From Halobellus limi (GTDB taxonomy: Archaea; Halobacteriota; Halobacteria; Halobacteriales; Haloferacaceae), in NCBI RefSeq assembly GCF_004799685.1, contig NZ_CP031314.1, forward strand, positions 1 to 64,000: 64,000 nt of DNA, given 5' to 3'. The stretch's first letter is position 1, and every line of letters begins with the position of its first letter. The notes under the pieces were generated by a model that searched no databases, was not told where the DNA came from, and saw only the letters and a program-made list of their open reading frames with translations. Positions 23,054 through 49,917 of this stretch are shown here, one piece after another. The position numbers and the translations under genes are program-made.

Positions 23054-23097
23054 AGTACCGAGTTCTCACTTTGCTATAGGACGTGTCAGGAATATAA

Positions 23098-27806: not shown

Positions 27807-28673
27807 ATGAGGGCTGAGAATCAGGAGCGCCAGGGGCCAGTTCCTGGCAGACTTCACGACAACTGGTGGGTGTTCATCTCGTTCACGCTACTCACGTACC
27901 TCTTCTCGTGGGGGATCTGGACCGTGATGGCTGCGGGAGTGTTTCCGCAATCCTTGGACGCGATACTGGGTAGACTCGGCGGGTTCGGCCCGCTCGTCGG
28001 TGCGCTTGGCGTGCTCTGGCTTTCGGGCTGGAGCGTTCGCGAGTGGTTCACGTCGAACGTGACGGTTCGTCTCCCCTTGCGCTGGTACGGATACGCGCTC
28101 CTCCTGCCGCCGCTACTGGTCGGCGCTGGTGGACTCGTTCACGCCACGCTGTTCGGGGAGACGATGGGGCTGGGCTCGCTTCCCCCATTCTGGGTCTACC
28201 CGATCAATCTCCTCATCGTCTTTTTCATCGGTGGCGGGCAAGAGGAGTTGGGCTGGCGCGGATTCGCGCTCCCCGCGGCACAAGGTCAGCTGTCCGCGTT
28301 CTCGTCGAGTCTACTCGTGGGAGTGGTCTGGGCAGGCTGGCATCTGCCCCTGTTCGTGTTACCAAACACACCCCAGGGTGACCTCCCGTTTCTCCCGTAT
28401 CTGCTCGCTGTAGTCGGGCTATCAGTCGTGCTCACGTGGCTGTACAACGGCAGCGGCGGGGGTGTTCTCGTCGCGATGCTGTTTCACGGCGGGATCAACC
28501 CCCTCGGGGCGTACTTCCCGACCGGAGGTGTCGACGCGATAACGACCATCTCCGGCTACAGCTCCTACGCTCTGGTCGTGGTCGCGTTCGCTGCAGTTCT
28601 CGCGATCGCGACCGGAGGCACCAACCTCGCCGGGCGGTCGCGAGCCCTCCTCGGTGACATCGTCGCTCGGTGA
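27807..28673 (+). CDS. CPBP intramembrane metalloprotease
   Basis: A 288-residue member with all residues in place: GGGQEELGWRGFALP (Glu146, Glu147, Arg151), WAGWHLPLF (His179) and LFHGGINPLG (His227, Asn231). The C-terminal part is closely matched by the CPBP half of the chimera at 30579-31047 (shared HGGINP, AYFPTGGV). It lies head to head with the gene at 26636 and convergent with the one at 28768. Confidence 0.92.
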   Translation: MRAENQERQGPVPGRLHDNWWVFISFTLLTYLFSWGIWTVMAAGVFPQSLDAILGRLGGFGPLVGALGVLWLSGWSVREWFTSNVTVRLPLRWYGYALLLPPLLVGAGGLVHATLFGETMGLGSLPPFWVYPINLLIVFFIGGGQEELGWRGFALPAAQGQLSAFSSSLLVGVVWAGWHLPLFVLPNTPQGDLPFLPYLLAVVGLSVVLTWLYNGSGGGVLVAMLFHGGINPLGAYFPTGGVDAITTISGYSSYALVVVAFAAVLAIATGGTNLAGRSRALLGDIVAR

Positions 28674-29736: not shown

Positions 29737-30321
29737 TCAGGAAAGCGGTGTACCTATGATCTCGCGACGGTCCGCTCGGAGGACTCCGACGAGCCCGCCA
29801 CCGATGGCGCCACATGCAACCGGGTACACGATCCCCGCGACGACAGCCGCACGAAGGAGATCCGGCTGGATCCCCACGAACGAAACCAAAATCGCACCGA
29901 TAATCGCGAACAACAGATACCCGATAGCGATCGTCAGCCCTGCTTGGACCCCCGCTTTCGGATCATCCACTCTTGCGAGATATGCAACAATCCCACCCGC
30001 GGCGAGGAGGAACAGCGGCGGGACGAGATACAGAAACTGGACTCCAGAGAGTCCAACGAAATCGACGTGTCCACTCACATCCGGGAGACGAGTCCCGACG
30101 AGATGGGCGTCATAGAATACCCATCCCACGGCCTTCCACGCCGGAGCGGACGCTGCACCGGCGTCGGTGAGGCGGACGTTGCCTTGGACTGCTCGGTTCA
30201 CTGCCGAGGCAGCCGTCGCGTACGTGACAAGATATCCGACGACGTACACAGTTATCCCGACGATTGCACCGTACACGACCGTCGCGGTACCACCTGATTC
30301 GGTGTGTGGTGATTGGCTCAT
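29737..30321 (-). CDS. Multi-spanning membrane protein, unknown function
   Basis: A 194-residue protein from the ATG at 30321, with five membrane segments (about 12-32, 80-108, 118-140 and two near 145-180) and a long polar stretch, TAASAVNRAVQGNVRLTDAG, after the first. No family recognised. The ATG at 30321 is preferred over an upstream one because the extra residues are polar and unlikely. Confidence 0.6.
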   Translation of the reverse strand: MSQSPHTESGGTATVVYGAIVGITVYVVGYLVTYATAASAVNRAVQGNVRLTDAGAASAPAWKAVGWVFYDAHLVGTRLPDVSGHVDFVGLSGVQFLYLVPPLFLLAAGGIVAYLARVDDPKAGVQAGLTIAIGYLLFAIIGAILVSFVGIQPDLLRAAVVAGIVYPVACGAIGGGLVGVLRADRREIIGTPLS

Positions 30322-30508
30322 ACCTTCCTCTATTGTTATGAAACAGCCCAATACAAGATATACTATCGGAGTAATTCCCGATCGACAGGAAATGCTGCGA
30401 TAGCTATCATCATCCACACCGCGTTTCAAGTATGGGACAACACGATTGCCTCTCTATGGCTGTTCGGGTTCTCAACTGTTGAATTCGTTCGGGGATCGTC
30501 TTAGGTCT

Positions 30509-30525
30509 ATCTCGATTCCCGGGAA
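30509..30525. promoter_or_regulatory. 17-bp inverted repeat, copy 2
   Basis: ATCTC-N7-GGGAA (one arm base off consensus), 13 bases before a TTATTATTTT TATA box (from about 30539) that would drive the DUF998::CPBP chimera. It shows the chimera kept a locus-type promoter. Confidence 0.65.
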
Positions 30526-30578
30526 CATCCGACTCGAGTTATTATTTTGCTCGGCCAATACTCCTCTGTGAATCGAAC

Positions 30579-31047
30579 ATGAATCAAATCGAATCAACCA
30601 ACGACGTAGTGTTCCCTCTCCGAGGACTGACGTTCGGGAGCCGAAAGCTCGCAGGAGTGCTCTTCTTCGCCCTCGCTGCCCAGTTCATGACTGTCATCAT
30701 GCTCGCCGCGGCGATGGCGCCCGACTACGACTTCGGTGCGGCCGCCATCAGCGACCTCGGCGTTCTTCCCGAAACGGCACTGCTGTTCGGGTCAATCGTC
30801 CGCACATGACTCTACAATTCCTCGGGGAGCGTACTGGTCCCGATGCTGTATCACGGGGGCATCAACCCGATTGCCGCGTACTTCCCGACCGGCGGGGTCA
30901 AGGCGGTCGGCACTGTCACGGGATACGGATCCTATACCTTGGTTCTCGTCGTCGCCGGCAGTGTTCTCCTCGCTGTCTACGGATCCCGACAGCTGTCCAA
31001 TCGGCCGCGCGTGACGCTTGCGGCGCTCTTGTCCTCACGATCTCGAC
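30579..31047 (+). pseudogene. DUF998::CPBP chimera with in-frame TGA
   Basis: From ATG 30579, about 72 residues match the N-terminus of the DUF998 protein at 41963 (shared FFALAAQFMTVIMLAAAM and ISDLGV.PETALLF). The match ends at LLFGS. In the same frame, after GSIVRT and TGA (30807-30809), the sequence continues LYNSSGSVLVPMLYHGGINP and AYFPTGGV, the last third of a CPBP protein like that at 27807, where the stop corresponds to Trp in TWLYN. So two genes were joined in frame and one base change (TGG to TGA) closed the product. No further stop occurs before the hydrolase at 31200, which lies in the same frame. Confidence 0.75.
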
Positions 31048-31142
31048 CGGTAGCCCACGCCGAGAAGGGCCGCCGTAGCTGGCTGTCCTCAGTAACGGAC
31101 GTGCGGTCCCCTATTGGTGTCTCGCATCCGATACAGGACCGT

Positions 31143-31159
31143 TTCCCAGGGGGTGAGAA
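31143..31159. promoter_or_regulatory. 17-bp inverted repeat, copy 3 (TTCCC-N7-GAGAA)
   Basis: Both arms fit the consensus. It is followed by an AT block (CTATTAC) about 6-12 bases later and by the hydrolase ATG at 31200. Confidence 0.7.
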
Positions 31160-31199
31160 CAGTCGCTATTACTGTAGCCTCAGCAACCAATGGGAGAAC

Positions 31200-32585
31200 A
31201 TGAAGTCCAGGGTTCCTGCCGCGTACGTCACCGCCGTGCTTCTCGTGGTAACCGTGGGCGGTATTGCTGGTTGGCTCGTTCCGTTTGTTCAGACGCCGAA
31301 CGCTGGGGGCAGCGGCTACACTGTCGAACACGTCTACGTCCGGGCCGACGACCGCATCACCACGGCCACGCTGTACCTCCCCGACGGGGACGAACAGGTG
31401 CCAGGAATCGTGTTCGGGGCCGGATCAGGGACCGCTCCCGCCCTCTACACGAACTACGGGGCGGCGCTCGCCACGAACGGCTTCGCGGTCCTCGTGGCCG
31501 GCCAGACGCGGGAACTGGAGACTGGAAACCCCATCTACTGGGAGATCAGACGCGATACGTCGAACATCTTCGAGCTGGCAGCCGGCAACTACGCGAACTG
31601 GGCAACCTATCTGGCATCACATCCACGAGTCGACGAGGACCGTCTCGTGCTCGCCGGGCACTCGGGTGGGGCCAACAGCGCGTATCGGGTGGCCTACGAA
31701 CGAGACACTGAGGGGGTCGTCGCCATCGCAGGTCGGTTCCCGCCCGAGACGGACGAGCCCTTCCCCACGAATCTCCTCCTGGCGACCGGGAGTGAGGACT
31801 CACTCGTGCCACCGAGCAAGCTGACGAACGTCTCCGCACAACTGACCGGCACCGCGCTGCAGCCCGGCCACCAGGTCGGGTCGTTCGAGAACGGAACGGC
31901 CACCCGCGTCACGGTCGCCGAGGGTGCGACGCACCTATCGGAAGCCGACGACCCCGTGCTGGTTCGGGAGTCGGCCGAGTGGGCGCTCCGGTCGGTTGGT
32001 GAGTCTCCGCCCGAGACGCTCGACATCACCGTCCGGTCGATCGGGTCGGTGCTGTATCAGTTCCTGTTCGGCCTCGTGGGCATCCTCGCAGGGACGGCAC
32101 TTACGAAGCGGGCACTCGCGAGCCGACTCGACGACCGACAGCGACGGGACGGTATCGTCGCGCTCGTGTGGCTGGTCGGCTTCACTGTGATCCTGCACAC
32201 GACGGTTTCCCAGCGCGTCTATCACTTCGGCCCGATGCCCGCGCAGGCGACCAAGTACGTCCTGCTGGGCGGCCTGTTGCTCGGCATAGGCTTCCTCCTC
32301 GACCGAGTCGCGTCGTCGAGGTCGTGGGCCGACTCGCGGGTTGGCTCGGCACTGTTCGACCTCGGGTTTCTCGTCGGTCCCGTCGGGGCGTTCGTCCTGC
32401 TGTCGACCCAGTTCGTCACCTTCCAGCTCGTGACGACGGTCGTCCTGTCGTCGGTCGCCCTGCTCGTGCTGGCCGCGGTCCTCTCGGAACTCGCCGTCCT
32501 GAAACTCGAACGTCGGTTCCGGTGGACTGTGGTCGGGATCGTGGTCCTCTGGCTCGTGCCGGCGATCGTCCCACCATATCTCTGA
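31200..32585 (+). CDS. Membrane alpha/beta hydrolase with C-terminal helices
   Basis: A 461-residue protein. An N-terminal helix (about 8-30) anchors a hydrolase domain with AGHSGGANS (Ser155), GSEDSL (Asp200) and GATHLSE (His245). After residue 280 there are five membrane segments (for example LVGILAGTALT and VALLVLAAVLSELAVL). The catalytic domain probably faces outside. The start ATG is set by the TATA and repeat just upstream, even though the frame is open back to the chimera. No named family; the triad supports an esterase, lipase or peptidase-like activity. Confidence 0.82.
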   Translation: MKSRVPAAYVTAVLLVVTVGGIAGWLVPFVQTPNAGGSGYTVEHVYVRADDRITTATLYLPDGDEQVPGIVFGAGSGTAPALYTNYGAALATNGFAVLVAGQTRELETGNPIYWEIRRDTSNIFELAAGNYANWATYLASHPRVDEDRLVLAGHSGGANSAYRVAYERDTEGVVAIAGRFPPETDEPFPTNLLLATGSEDSLVPPSKLTNVSAQLTGTALQPGHQVGSFENGTATRVTVAEGATHLSEADDPVLVRESAEWALRSVGESPPETLDITVRSIGSVLYQFLFGLVGILAGTALTKRALASRLDDRQRRDGIVALVWLVGFTVILHTTVSQRVYHFGPMPAQATKYVLLGGLLLGIGFLLDRVASSRSWADSRVGSALFDLGFLVGPVGAFVLLSTQFVTFQLVTTVVLSSVALLVLAAVLSELAVLKLERRFRWTVVGIVVLWLVPAIVPPYL

Positions 32586-32648
32586 CTCCGCCGGGGCTCC
32601 TGTGACGGCCGGTCCCGGGATGGGCGCGGTTGGCCCCCGCAGCCGGTA

Positions 32649-32665
32649 TTCCCACCGGCTGATAC
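32649..32665. promoter_or_regulatory. 17-bp inverted repeat, copy 4 (weaker)
   Basis: TTCCC-N7-GATAC: one perfect arm and one with two changes. It is placed about 10 bases before the TATA-like GATTATAC of the nitroreductase-like gene, the same geometry as the better copies. Confidence 0.5.
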
Positions 32666-32705
32666 TGCCAGTCACGATTATACTCTCCGCGGACAAATCT
32701 CTGGT

Positions 32706-33713
32706 ATGCCAGCAGCATCTCTCACTAGATCGGTCTGGGACGTCACAGCCGACGATTTCCCGACGGACGGGACACGAGAGGAGCAGGCCAGATTCCTGCT
32801 CCGGTACGCCATCCTGGCCCCGTCGAGTCACAACTCCCAGCCCTGGACGTTCGAGGTGGGTGGCAACGAGATTCGAATCGCCGCCGACGAGTCTCGCTGG
32901 CTCGACGCCGCCGACCCGGACAGGCGAGAACTGTACATCAGTGTCGGCTGTGCCGTCGAGAACTGCTGTGTCGCGGCCGAACACTTCGGTTTCGATCCGG
33001 AACTCGAGTATCACGACCCCGGATCGGCCGACAACGTCGTGACGGTGACGCTCGAGAAGGGCGAACCCGCGAACCCAAGCCCGCCCGAGCTGGTCGACGC
33101 GCTCACGACAAGAGCGACGAGCCACGAGGTGTTCGAGGACCGAGCGCTCGGACCGGAGACGCGCGAGCGACTGCGGGATGTTGTCCACGAGACTGATGTC
33201 ACGCTCCATTTCGTCGACGACCCGGAGGCGAAAGGCACGATCAGCGAGTTGCAGGCGGAGGCGGACCGGCTCCAGATGGACGACCCCGAGTACCGAACGG
33301 AACTGGGCCACTGGATCGGCAACGGCGCGCTCGGCAGTTCCTGGCTCGCGGCTCGCATCGGACAGGCCGTCGTCACACACCTCGACATCGGCGATCGAGA
33401 AGCGAAGAAGAACTCAAAATTGATTCAGAGCGCACCAGTCGTCGCCGTGCTGACGACCGGGGTGGACGACCCGACCGCACGGGTCAGGACCGGACAGGCC
33501 TTCGAGCGGATTGCGCTCCTGGCCAGCACTGAGGGCGTCGCCGTCCATCCCATAAGCCAGACGCTCGAGCGTCCCGAGATGCGGGAACGGCTCGAGCACC
33601 TCCTGCCGGATGACGCGGGCCGTCCACAGCACCTCTTCCGACTGGGGTACACCGACGGGGAAGCCGAGCACACCCCGCGCTGGCCACTCGAGACATTCCT
33701 CGCCCAGGCTTGA
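32706..33713 (+). CDS. Acg-family FMN-binding nitroreductase-like protein
   Basis: A 335-residue soluble protein. RYAILAPSSHNSQPWTFEV (about 29-47) is the typical FMN-phosphate region of nitroreductase-like Acg proteins, and GCAVENCCVAAEHFGF near 83-98 matches the second conserved block. The C-terminal domain repeats the fold (VVAVLTTGVDDP, RTGQAFERIALLA). In Mycobacterium, Acg binds FMN and is dormancy-linked. The closest role here is an FMN store or oxidoreductase; the substrate is unknown. Confidence 0.85.
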   Translation: MPAASLTRSVWDVTADDFPTDGTREEQARFLLRYAILAPSSHNSQPWTFEVGGNEIRIAADESRWLDAADPDRRELYISVGCAVENCCVAAEHFGFDPELEYHDPGSADNVVTVTLEKGEPANPSPPELVDALTTRATSHEVFEDRALGPETRERLRDVVHETDVTLHFVDDPEAKGTISELQAEADRLQMDDPEYRTELGHWIGNGALGSSWLAARIGQAVVTHLDIGDREAKKNSKLIQSAPVVAVLTTGVDDPTARVRTGQAFERIALLASTEGVAVHPISQTLERPEMRERLEHLLPDDAGRPQHLFRLGYTDGEAEHTPRWPLETFLAQA

Positions 33714-36209: not shown

Positions 36210-36920
36210 TTACCCCAGCAACCCGTGAGCGATTCCCGGCGCGAGGAGCCGTCCACGACGCTTCCGGAGCCACCCGTAGACGAGGCCGCCGGCGAACGCC
36301 GCCGCGAACAGGTACCACGCGGTGAACGGGTAGTACCCGACGTGTGCGACCGAGAACGCACCGGCCTGAACGACGACCGCAGGCCACTCACCATATCTGT
36401 CCGCGAGTTCGGTCTGGAGGAAGCCACGGAACAGCGTCTCCTCCTGGAAGGACGCCACTGCGAACCCGAACACGAGCAGGAGAAGCGTCCCGGCTAGCGA
36501 GGGAGCTTCCGCGACCGGTGCGTTCGGCGGCCGTGGCCCCAGCAGCGACTGGAACCCGATGGCGATCCCTGCTGTCACGACGAGTGCGAGGACGAACCCG
36601 GCGAGACCCCACGCGATGTCTCGGAACAGGTGCTCGCGGTCGACCCACCAGGAGACGATGTCGACGCCGACCCAGCGGATGAACCCGAGGTAGACCAGTC
36701 CGACCGAGCCGACGAGGATCGTCACGAGCACCAGTCCGCCGTACTGGAGCGGGTCGGCGGGCGTCGGCTGCGTCCAGAGTGGACCCCAGAGGAGCGCACG
36801 CATCACGACGAACCCGAGGAGGATGATTCCGCCGCGTCGGAGTTGCGTCTGGGTGAACGAGTGGTCGATGGACGAGTCGGTTCGTGTCTGTGCGTCGTCG
36901 AGGACTGTTTCAGTGGTCAT
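36210..36920 (-). CDS. CPBP membrane protease, C-terminally short form
   Basis: A 236-residue member: FQEETLFRGFLQ (Glu160, Glu161, Arg165), FSVAHVGYYP (His193) and APGIAHGLLG (His232) at the very end. It is a close paralogue of the gene at 25853, with the same missing last helix and Asn. Its ATG overlaps the stop of the ABC-ATPase remnant (ATGA). The transcript probably starts at the promoter before the CPBP gene at 37144. Confidence 0.88.
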   Translation of the reverse strand: MTTETVLDDAQTRTDSSIDHSFTQTQLRRGGIILLGFVVMRALLWGPLWTQPTPADPLQYGGLVLVTILVGSVGLVYLGFIRWVGVDIVSWWVDREHLFRDIAWGLAGFVLALVVTAGIAIGFQSLLGPRPPNAPVAEAPSLAGTLLLLVFGFAVASFQEETLFRGFLQTELADRYGEWPAVVVQAGAFSVAHVGYYPFTAWYLFAAAFAGGLVYGWLRKRRGRLLAPGIAHGLLG

Positions 36921-37141
36921 CGGTTGTGTCGAGCGGTTAGTTGGGGGCAGACGGCTGACGGTCCAGCACCCGGTTGCGAGTGGTAATCGAGAAGGACGAC
37001 GTTTGTCGTCGACTTCCCCGCACCGCTGGGACCGAGGAAGCCGAACACCTCGCCCGGCTCGACGGGCAGCGAGAGGTCGTTGCTGGCGGAGACGTCCTGG
37101 CCGTAGCCTTTCGTCAGCCCCTCCGTCTGGATTGTTGCCAC
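36917..37141 (-). pseudogene. ABC transporter ATPase remnant (N-terminal fragment)
   Basis: A GTG at 37141 opens a 74-residue frame: MATIQTEGLTKGYGQDVSAS, then EVFGFLGPSGAGKSTT (Walker A) and LLDYHSQPGAGP, after which the sequence becomes unrelated. It is the same N-terminus type as the ATPase at 18953 (IQTTGLTKRYGKDV, DYVRPSAGS). The signature, Walker B and H-loop are gone. It sits between two CPBP genes with 2 bases to the upstream one and a 4-base overlap to the downstream one, so an exporter gene was probably lost from this operon. Confidence 0.8.
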
Positions 37142-39980: not shown

Positions 39981-41957
39981 TTACAGTGGTAGAATCCCGA
40001 GCAGGGACAGTTGCCAGGCGAACAGGAGTGCGAGCGCCGTCACCACAGAAAAGTGGAGCCGGGCCCAGCGAGTCCAGAAGCCGTCGCGCCACGCGAACCC
40101 GGTCGCGACGACGGCACCGACCGTCCCAGCGAGGGCGATCCATCTGAGGACCTTGCCGGTCTGGAGTGCGAACGACGGCGAGGCGGCTTCGGCGTCGAAG
40201 TTGATCCAGGCCAGCAGGAAGATGACCAGCACTGCCAGCCAGAGCAGACTCACCACGCCGAGCAGCCAGCGGGCCGCCCGCTCGCGGCCGGTCGGGAGGT
40301 CACCGCCTCGCCATCGTCGCCACACCGGACCACCGACCCAGAGCAACAGGACGGAGAGGAAGGCCACAACGCCCCCGCCGAGGACAGCCTGGAGCACCGT
40401 GAGACTCTCGTACCACGGGACGCGTTCGTAGGTGGCGGGCCCGAAGGCGTGTCGGAACATGTGGGTCGCGCGGCCATCCTCGTCGAACCGGAAGACCAGC
40501 GTGTCGCTCCCGCCGACCTCCTCATACACCCCTTGACGGCGTTCGACCCATCTGCGAGTGGGTTCGCCGAGGCGACTGGTGGTCAGGTACCCCTCTTCGG
40601 TGGCTCCGACGGTGTAGGTCCGTGTCATCACGCCGAGAACGCGCTCCCAGGAGGACGCAGACACTGTCAGCGAGCGGTAGTCACCCGTCAGGTCGCGCGC
40701 TCGCTCCGCGGCACCGTCCGGTGGTTCCACAACTGGCGTATCCGACCGCGGGTAATACCGGTCCGTGAACGCCTGGAGGAGTTCGAACCGGGCGGGACCG
40801 CCGCCGGGACTGTTGTAGACAACGAACAGGCCGGTGTCGCGCTCGGGGTAGAGCGCTAGCAGGCTCTTGAAGCGGGGCGTGTCGCCCCAGTGGCCGACGA
40901 TCGTCTCGTCGTTGCGGTCCATCTCTATGAAGCCGTAGGCCATCCCGTTTAGTTCCGGGACCGCTTCGGACTTCGTGAACTGTCGCTGGTGCATCTCACG
41001 GACCGTCTCGGCCTCGAGAATGCGTTCCGAGCCGTATTCGCCCTCGTTCAGGTGGGCGAGCATGAACTGCCCCATGTCAATGGGGGTCGTGCGGAGCGAC
41101 CCACCCTCGGGCGGCAGTGTCCAGATCACGGGGTCGTGAGCCTGGTACTCGCCGTTCTGGTGCGTGTATCCGATGGCGCGGCGAGGCTCCAGTCGGGCGG
41201 GAAGCGGTTGGGCGTAGGTCGTGTCGGCCATCCCGAGGGGCGTGAAGATGCGCTCGTCGACCAGTTCGGTGAAATTCGCGTTGGACTGCTCGGCGAGCAC
41301 GTGTCCGGCCAGGGCCGTCCCGTAGTTCGAGTACGCGACGAACTGGCCCGGCGGCCTGACGCGTGCCGGCCGGTGCGCGGCGAGAATCTCATCCATCGGC
41401 CGTATCTCGTCGGGGTCGTCCGTGACCATCCCCCTGAAGATGTCCTCGAAGCCCGCCGAGTGGGTGGCGAGGTGATTCAACGTAATCGGCTCGTCGTCGG
41501 TGTCCGGGACCGTGACTGCCGAGTCGGTCAGGTACTCGTTCACGTCGCGGTCGCGTTCGAGCCGTCCGTCCTCGACGCCCTGCATCACGGCCGTCCACGT
41601 GACGAGTTTGCCGGTCGAGCCGACGCTGAACACCGTCTCGTTGGCGTCGACGGGTCGCTGAGAATCGAGAGCTGCGTACCCGTACCCCTTCGCGAGAACC
41701 ACCTCGCCGTCGCTGACGATGACGACGGCCGCGCCCGGGACGTTGTACTCCTCCAGTTGGTGGGCCATCGTCTCGTCGAGCCACGCCCCGGTCTCCGTCT
41801 GGTTCGTCAGGGCGACCTGCTCGGTCGGTGTGGATACGTGGGCTGGCGGCGTCGCAGTCGAGTCGGGAACCGGAGTGGCTGTCGCGACGAGCGGCGCGCT
41901 CAGGAGTGTGACGACGAGTGCGACCGCGCCGAGGAGACGTATTCGTCGCTCGAACAT
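39981..41957 (-). CDS. Membrane serine hydrolase (beta-lactamase/class C type)
   Basis: A 658-residue protein. The signal or anchor (about 5-28) leads to a serine hydrolase domain: GSTGKLVTW (Ser114, Lys117, the SxxK motif), AYSNYGT (Tyr209, Asn211, the YxN motif) and GHWGD (His356-Trp-Gly358, in place of KTG). A beta-rich region follows, then four membrane helices (about 520-658). Relatives cleave D-Ala peptides, esters or beta-lactams; haloarchaea lack murein, so the target is probably another surface polymer or a lipid. It lies 5 bases after the DUF998 gene. Confidence 0.88.
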   Translation of the reverse strand: MFERRIRLLGAVALVVTLLSAPLVATATPVPDSTATPPAHVSTPTEQVALTNQTETGAWLDETMAHQLEEYNVPGAAVVIVSDGEVVLAKGYGYAALDSQRPVDANETVFSVGSTGKLVTWTAVMQGVEDGRLERDRDVNEYLTDSAVTVPDTDDEPITLNHLATHSAGFEDIFRGMVTDDPDEIRPMDEILAAHRPARVRPPGQFVAYSNYGTALAGHVLAEQSNANFTELVDERIFTPLGMADTTYAQPLPARLEPRRAIGYTHQNGEYQAHDPVIWTLPPEGGSLRTTPIDMGQFMLAHLNEGEYGSERILEAETVREMHQRQFTKSEAVPELNGMAYGFIEMDRNDETIVGHWGDTPRFKSLLALYPERDTGLFVVYNSPGGGPARFELLQAFTDRYYPRSDTPVVEPPDGAAERARDLTGDYRSLTVSASSWERVLGVMTRTYTVGATEEGYLTTSRLGEPTRRWVERRQGVYEEVGGSDTLVFRFDEDGRATHMFRHAFGPATYERVPWYESLTVLQAVLGGGVVAFLSVLLLWVGGPVWRRWRGGDLPTGRERAARWLLGVVSLLWLAVLVIFLLAWINFDAEAASPSFALQTGKVLRWIALAGTVGAVVATGFAWRDGFWTRWARLHFSVVTALALLFAWQLSLLGILPL

Positions 41958-41962
41958 TCGAC

Positions 41963-42613
41963 CTACCGAGTGGAGACAGTCGCCTGCTCGCGCTCCCCGA
42001 GCAGGTAGCCGCCGAAGGCGACCAGCCAGAGCATCACGGGGTAGACGATCATCCGCTCGGTGCCGCCGTGCCCGATGGGGCCGAACGCGGCGGTGTTCCC
42101 ACCGTCACCGAGCGCCATCAACACGACGAAGACGAGTCCGAGCACGCCAGCCAGGACGGCCAGTGCCCGCATGACGCCGCCGAGGCGAGTCGCGCTCCCG
42201 ATGGCCTGCACGTTGAAGAAGACGAACGCGAGCAGTGCCGACAGGCCGTGGAGGCCGCCGGTGTCCAGCGGGAAGAGGCCGGCGCCGATCGCACCGACGC
42301 CCGCCAGCGCGAAGACCGCGAGGAGCCAGCGCTTCCCGTGGCTGCGGTAGAAGAAGTATCCACCTGCCAGATTCAGCACGCCGACCAAGATCAGCGAGGC
42401 GTTGAACAGGAGTGCCGTCTCGGGAAACACTCCGAGGTCACTGATGGCACCCCCACGGAAATCATAGCCGGGGACCATCGCCGCCGCGAGCATGATCACT
42501 GTCATGAACTGTGCAGCGAGTGCGAAGAAGCAGATACCCGCCAGTGTTCGGGGCGCGACCGCCACCCCCCGAATCGAGATTACTGGCTCAGCTGTAGATT
42601 CGAGTTGGCTCAT
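41963..42613 (-). CDS. DUF998 family membrane protein
   Basis: A 216-residue protein with six segments. ISDLGVFPETALLFNASLI (about 59-77) matches the conserved start of DUF998, and GAIGAGLFPLDTG near 116-128 is the other family block. Function unknown. The first 70 residues recur in the chimera at 30579. It leads a probable four-gene operon (DUF998, serine hydrolase, CPBP, CPBP) and has copy 7 of the repeat upstream. Confidence 0.85.
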   Translation of the reverse strand: MSQLESTAEPVISIRGVAVAPRTLAGICFFALAAQFMTVIMLAAAMVPGYDFRGGAISDLGVFPETALLFNASLILVGVLNLAGGYFFYRSHGKRWLLAVFALAGVGAIGAGLFPLDTGGLHGLSALLAFVFFNVQAIGSATRLGGVMRALAVLAGVLGLVFVVLMALGDGGNTAAFGPIGHGGTERMIVYPVMLWLVAFGGYLLGEREQATVSTR

Positions 42614-42667
42614 GTATTGTTCACCGTACTACTGTTGGCTAGATAATGATATAAATCGAGACGGCGC

Positions 42668-42684
42668 TTCCCGTTCGGTGAGAA
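42668..42684. promoter_or_regulatory. 17-bp inverted repeat, copy 7 (TTCCC-N7-GAGAA)
   Basis: Perfect arms, about 11 bases upstream of the TTTATATCA TATA box (42649-42657, minus strand) of the DUF998 gene. Confidence 0.75.
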
Positions 42685-42743
42685 CGAATCAGAGACGGCC
42701 CGAGAGAACGACTCGCTATCCGTTGGCTCGTCACTCTTGAGGG

Positions 42744-49005: not shown

Positions 49006-49057
49006 CGCATTCACCAGACGAACAGACGATCGACCAGACGATAACTGCTGCTGGTGG

Positions 49058-49074
49058 TTCTCACTGGGCAGGAA
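49058..49074. promoter_or_regulatory. 17-bp inverted repeat, copy 12
   Basis: TTCTC-N7-AGGAA, between the divergent genes at 48154 and 49135; about 10 bases from a CAGTTATCG block (49040-49048, minus strand). Confidence 0.65.
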
Positions 49075-49134
49075 CCGACATCCCCTTCGGGGGAGGCGTG
49101 GTTTCATGACTCATGGGTTCGTCACATCGCGACA

Positions 49135-49917
49135 ATGACTTCGGCAGTACAGCTCTTCGGGGGTGCGCTCGGAGCACTCGCGTTCGTCGACATCGCCCGC
49201 CGCTGGGGCGGGCCCTATCCGGAACGCCTGCCCTCGACAATCGAGCGTCGTCGCGAACTCCTCGAGGTCGGGGTTCTGTTTGCGCTGACAGCCGGCGCGG
49301 TCACGTACCCGATTTTGCTCTTCCGCGACGTGCTTTCCTACAACCCCGTGTTCGCCAGTATCGGCGGTCAGACGTTCGGGTTCGTGTTCCTGCTCGGTGC
49401 GCTGACAGCAGTCGTCGTTCCCGCAGTCCTCGAACTCGGCGTCCACGGTCGATCGCTCGCCGACCTGGGGTTTCGACGACCGGTCGCCTGGCGACCCACG
49501 CTTCTGTTGGTCGGCGTCGGTGTCCTCTTCGGTCTCGCACCACTCGCGTTCGGTTTCAGCGGGACCGAATCGGCCGCCGCACTGTTGCTCGGCCTCTACA
49601 CGCCGGTGTTCAAAGAAGAATTTCTCTTCCGAGGTGTTCTTCAGACGAAACTCGAGCGGGTCGTCACCCAGGAGCGTGCGTGGATCACCTCGGGCGTCCT
49701 GTTCGGCCTCAGTCACGTGCCAAACGACTTCTTTGGCTTCTTCTGGGTGGCCGACGGCGGCGATCCGATCATCGCACTGGGACGACTGACATAGCAGACG
49801 GCGAAAGGACTGCTCTACGGCCTCCTGTTCATGAAATCACGGACGCTCGTGGCTCCAATCGTGGCGCACTACTGCTCAAACAAACTGGCACTCGTCGTGA
49901 ACTCCATCTGGGGGTGA
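49135..49917 (+). pseudogene. CPBP protease gene with in-frame TAG
   Basis: A paralogue of the gene at 28768. Residues 1-219 are intact, including FKEEFLFRGVLQTKLERVV (Glu161, Glu162, Arg166) and FGLSHVPNDFFG (His194). TAG at 49792-49794 falls where the paralogue has Ala in LTAQTATG. The same frame then continues about 40 residues: KGLLYGLLFMKSRTL and the last motif AHYCSN, to TGA at 49917. The amber product would lack the final His, so it is probably inactive. Confidence 0.8.

Follow-up and report, generated by a model that had tools for sequence, protein, structure and literature searches.

The reading frame that opens at ATG 30579 on the forward strand is very probably a pseudogene at a recombination breakpoint, in which a DUF998 gene, now lost, was joined to a native CPBP gene through a short shared word and the product then decayed. 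All coordinates refer to the window, the 64,000 nt of Halobellus limi NZ_CP031314.1 analyzed here (assembly GCF_004799685.1, positions 1–64,000, forward strand). The replicon that carries the chimera is plasmid-sized DNA of a salt-loving archaeon. As we propose it, the ancestor would have had an intact CPBP gene in front of an esterase and a nitroreductase gene, an arrangement present in Halorientalis marina that we take to be ancestral. A breakpoint at about codon 194 of CPBP would have been joined to codon 71 of a second DUF998 gene by way of the 6–8 bp word CTGTTC/TGCTGTTC, in a microhomology-mediated (MMEJ-type) deletion or rearrangement that we infer from the joint. The product would have retained the DUF998 promoter and reading frame without the CPBP glutamate and first histidine motifs, and would have acquired a TGA codon and a 1-nt frameshift after joining.

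Composition of the chimeric frame

Two unrelated halves share the frame: the front of a DUF998 gene, codons 1–71 (30579–30791, MNQIESTN...PETALLF; blastn, protein match and alignments), and the C-terminal third of a CPBP gene (30789–31040, GSIVRT*LYN...). An initial annotation had matched the first ~72 codons to the DUF998 gene at 41963 and what follows, with no change of frame, to the last third of the CPBP gene at 27807, and both matches hold. On the DUF998 side, 30520–30788 aligns with 42673–42404 of the minus strand at 71% nucleotide identity over 270 bp (blastn, E 5.5e-45). This alignment covers codons 1–70 and a 5′ UTR/upstream region (30520–30578) homologous to that of the 41963 gene, which lies at 41963–42613 on the strand opposite to the chimera. 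The 41963 protein is matched at 54% over query positions 1–111 (E 6.3e-25), and in protein alignments the DUF998 match extends to codon ~71. On the CPBP side, 30825–30951 aligns with 28458–28584 of the 27807 gene at 72% over 127 bp (E 1.1e-19), and the protein match extends to codon ~152.

Neither half retains a complete domain. The full DUF998 domain (PF06197) has ~184 positions, of which 71 codons are left, and 30579–30806 gives no Pfam match, whereas the 41963 gene matches DUF998 at 1.1e-20. The CPBP/Rce1-like (PF02517) motifs EExxxR and WxxWH/FxxxH, present in the 27807 gene and found as EELGWR and LWHLPLF in the H. marina CPBP, both lie 5′ of the joint and are absent from the chimera. The third motif, HxxxN, is retained as YHGGIN, and 30810–31040 is without a Pfam match at E 0.01. 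Because the glutamate and first histidine motifs are lost, the chimera, as predicted from its sequence, could not be a CPBP protease.

Origin of the two halves and their joint

A search of a plasmid collection found H. marina plasmid unnamed1 (NZ_CP095488.1), which is 85.7% identical to the window from 30781 onward. There an intact CPBP gene (MUG96_RS20365, 291718–292578), complete at 286 aa and with all CPBP motifs, is followed by an esterase gene (MUG96_RS20370) and a nitroreductase gene, and the esterase and its palindrome, like the nitroreductase, are as in the window; upstream of CPBP is an alpha/beta hydrolase gene and no DUF998. The C-terminal 82 codons of MUG96_RS20365 are orthologous to the truncated window remnant, at 90% nucleotide identity over 250 bp from 292297. 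Collinearity with NZ_CP095488.1 runs over 30781–33703 at 87% and, with gaps, to 43293 at 88–92%, taking in the beta-lactamase and DUF998 genes at 39981–42613; its left end is the joint. Judged by the 90% identity and the same downstream neighbors in H. marina, the remnant is what is left of the CPBP gene native to this site, the ortholog of MUG96_RS20365. The genome holds no other close copy of this CPBP parent, the best other match being 54% at the amino acid level.

The DUF998 half has a different history. In the whole genome, DUF998 matches are confined to the 41963 gene, the one complete copy, and the chimera. Compared with 41 other DUF998 starts, the chimeric half reaches at most 76% nucleotide identity, and 73% with 41963. 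The 41963 gene and the H. marina DUF998 gene are 90% identical over the first 71 codons and fall in a supported group (99/89) in the tree; the chimeric half falls outside it. This degree of divergence and this position indicate that the DUF998 half belongs to a lineage of its own, derived from a second DUF998 gene that is now lost.

These comparisons bear on the initial annotation's proposal of a gene fusion by recombination within the locus. The in-frame union of two unrelated genes stands, while the donors it implied, 41963 and 27807, were rejected by identity and tree. In favor of recombination between these two genes, whether gene-conversion-like or by inversion, the halves resemble them at 71% and 72%, a stretch of 15 kb encloses all the parts, and the DUF998 pieces lie in inverted orientation 11.6 kb from each other. 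We nonetheless consider it highly unlikely: at 90% identity, the CPBP half is far closer to the H. marina gene at the same gene position than to 27807 (59–72%), the DUF998 half stands outside the group in which 41963 is so close to its H. marina counterpart, and such a fusion would demand extreme divergence from both genes after it occurred.

The initial annotation had also suggested looking for the unfused parents in relatives, and this succeeded for one side: the un-joined CPBP gene stands before the esterase in H. marina, while the DUF998 donor and its position were not found in the haloarchaeal genomes searched (overlapping sets of 60, 170 and 391). An intermediate, with DUF998 upstream of this CPBP gene on the same strand, was likewise not found in the genomes searched. 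To the left of the joint, the synteny search returned a 71% CPBP match in Salinirubellus only, plus distant homologs of the 29740–30321 protein, which are present in most genomes of the family, and gave no clue to the donor. In the DUF998 neighborhoods compared in other genomes, DUF998 mostly precedes a beta-lactamase gene and often CPBP genes on its own strand, and this CPBP–esterase pair did not appear among them. Like the haloarchaeal DUF998 genes paired with a beta-lactamase-family (PF00144) gene (41963, H. marina MUG96_RS20435, and L038 and L040–L043), the chimera has the upstream element, the 5′ UTR and the first 71 codons; unlike them, it is without the remaining ~145 codons and without a beta-lactamase neighbor. 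In the window the pair occupies 39981–42613, DUF998 followed by PF00144, and as a conserved pair it recurs in several haloarchaeal genera, where CPBP genes frequently adjoin it.

Base-level alignment at the junction, another check that had been suggested, did reveal a short identical stretch. The joint reads CACTGCTGTTCGGGTC in the window, CCTTGCTGTTCGGGTC in the H. marina CPBP gene and CACTCCTGTTCAACGC in the 41963 DUF998 gene. The word common to all three is CTGTTC, which encodes Leu-Phe in both proteins; the window and the H. marina CPBP gene share the longer TGCTGTTC (30781–30788), whose last six bases are CTGTTC, so that the shared word is 6–8 bp long. A codon table places CTGTTC at the same position in most DUF998 genes. 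The limits of the DNA matches converge here: nearly all matches on the DUF998 side go no further than 30788, with one reaching 30800; the main hits in CPBP genes elsewhere begin at 30796, and that in H. marina begins at 30781. Neither the 60, 170 and 391 haloarchaeal genomes searched (overlapping sets) nor the plasmid collection contained a match across the joint, and a conserved chimera family was rejected on these grounds.

An identical word at the breakpoint is thus common to both parent families, with DUF998 relatives standing in for the true donor. A word of 6–8 bp can arise at a joint by chance; short-homology joining is the simplest reading, taken from the joint itself, and an MMEJ-type event probably made it. 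MMEJ is documented for Haloferax volcanii, a species without Ku (PMC7776575). The MMEJ-type deletion joints described there resemble the chimera in having an identical short word with sequence lost on both sides, whereas the case for the chimera is drawn from one present-day joint. That the frame was preserved is probably due to chance (about 1 in 3), with the Leu-Phe in both genes contributing. The gene upstream of CPBP in H. marina is an alpha/beta hydrolase, so a simple deletion between tandem genes may not have been the route.

Decay of the chimera and the downstream esterase

The TGA at 30807–30809 falls, as the initial annotation had observed, exactly at a CPBP tryptophan, the Trp of TWLYN in the 27807 paralog, the H. 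marina ortholog and two further CPBPs; the codon is TGG in H. marina and in the two outgroup genes. Measured against H. marina, the remnant has lost ~193 N-terminal codons, including the EExxxR and WxxWH motifs, and carries the TGG to TGA change, a Leu to Arg substitution two codons before it, and a Glu to Lys substitution. A 1-nt deletion near 31041 (31039–31043; the exact base is ambiguous in the alignment) shifts the frame and takes away the native CPBP stop. The TGA, the Leu to Arg change in the same motif and the Glu to Lys change belong to the window lineage; the frameshift is defined by comparison with H. marina. Since the native stop is gone, the frame that had been taken to end at 31047 stays open after the TGA to 32585, through the esterase gene.

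The suggestion that one base change might restore the gene therefore fails, two thirds of CPBP and the native stop having been lost. If the TGA were read as selenocysteine or another residue, the product would lack the first two CPBP motifs and continue in frame into the esterase. With truncation, nonsense mutation and frameshift all present relative to an intact ortholog, the chimera is almost certainly dead, one of the two states that the initial annotation had proposed. A sequencing or assembly error, with the gene intact in the cell, could account for a single TGA or a 1-nt deletion. A base error could not explain the missing two thirds of CPBP or the foreign DUF998 start, and several independent changes surround the TGA; we regard such an error as extremely unlikely.

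The death was probably recent. Against H. marina, the remnant has a dN/dS of 0.145, near that of its intact neighbors (0.20 for the esterase, 0.15 for DUF998), which would reflect either a young death or residual constraint. Among polarized changes, the window lineage has 5 non-synonymous or nonsense against 8 synonymous and the H. marina lineage 0 against 4, counts too small to demonstrate relaxed constraint.

If the 76-codon N-terminal DUF998 piece were produced as a small membrane protein, the locus would be a working short gene, and the start codon, the promoter element and an undamaged 71-codon frame are indeed retained. Among the genomes searched the piece was found in this one only, however; the DUF998 homologs that were read out are full length, the operator half-site is degraded and the piece has no Pfam match, and we think it very unlikely that the locus works in this way.

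The downstream gene (31203–32585), an intact FrsA-like/alpha-beta hydrolase referred to here as the esterase, is the same neighbor that follows CPBP in H. marina and has a weak, sub-cut-off Pfam match to FrsA-like. Its own operator-like palindrome, TTTCCCAGGGGGTGAGAAC (31142–31160), is identical in H. marina at 292656 and ends 40–43 bp before the esterase start. The esterase keeps its own promoter element and, on this reading of the sequence, can do without the remnant. With the CPBP stop lost through the frameshift, 30843–32585 is an open frame, and a start at ATG 30843 would give a 580-aa protein with the CPBP tail ahead of the esterase. This fusion is scarcely credible: the esterase has its own start, at which its homologs also begin, and its own conserved palindrome, and at this G+C content chance open frames are common. 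Another idea is that the rearrangement captured the DUF998 promoter for the esterase–nitroreductase pair, the dead chimera serving as a transcribed leader and its promoter as an additional one of the same regulon; we consider this very unlikely.

A promoter palindrome and the CPBP array

Alignment of DUF998 upstream regions revealed a palindrome, RTTCYC-N7-GRGAAY. The repeat copy noted in the chimera's promoter is a degraded version of it: TATCTCGATTCCCGGGAAC at 30508–30526 (+) reads TATCTC-N7-GGGAAC, with the left half degraded, and ends 53 bp before the ATG. Its counterpart at 42667–42685, 54 bp before the 41963 gene, is better kept. Sites matching at least 11 of the 12 positions number 16 in the window, against 2.0 expected in shuffles (the largest of 60 had 7). 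All but two of the 16 lie 38–54 bp before the ATG of a long frame, a spacing with a background of 9.6%; these 14 are at 23097, 31142, 34701, 38067, 42667, 43262, 45677, 46450, 46487, 49057, 54769, 59452, 60410 and 61531. The genes that bear them, among them CPBP, DUF998 and esterase genes, are spread across an array of CPBP genes, and H. marina has several sites at similar distances from annotated starts. The sites appear to form one regulon. In archaeal promoters, the BRE and TATA elements are expected downstream of where the palindrome sits, and this upstream position suggests that it is a candidate activator site.

By itself the chimera matters little, a gene remnant at a breakpoint being ordinary in kind. 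Together with its intact relative, it points to an unusually dense CPBP array on a haloarchaeal replicon that is being reshuffled by short-homology joints, of which two were seen, and it led to the palindrome that seems to unite the array in a single regulon. The array and the shared palindrome are better leads than the chimera.

The array comprises 24 Rce1-like (PF02517) genes in the 64-kb window, spanning 9563–59946. Two more lie just past the window, extending the array on the contig to 66082, and the whole genome has 35; a 2022 review table lists five CPBP genes for Haloferax volcanii (PMC9263693). At 36917–37141 is a second remnant, a fusion of the beginning of an ABC-transporter ATPase gene with the final part of its permease gene. 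This joint, at 36983, shares ~1 bp; compared with H. marina, ~1.6 kb has been deleted. The CPBP gene at 49054–49881 has one internal TAG in the genome search and is possibly another broken copy.
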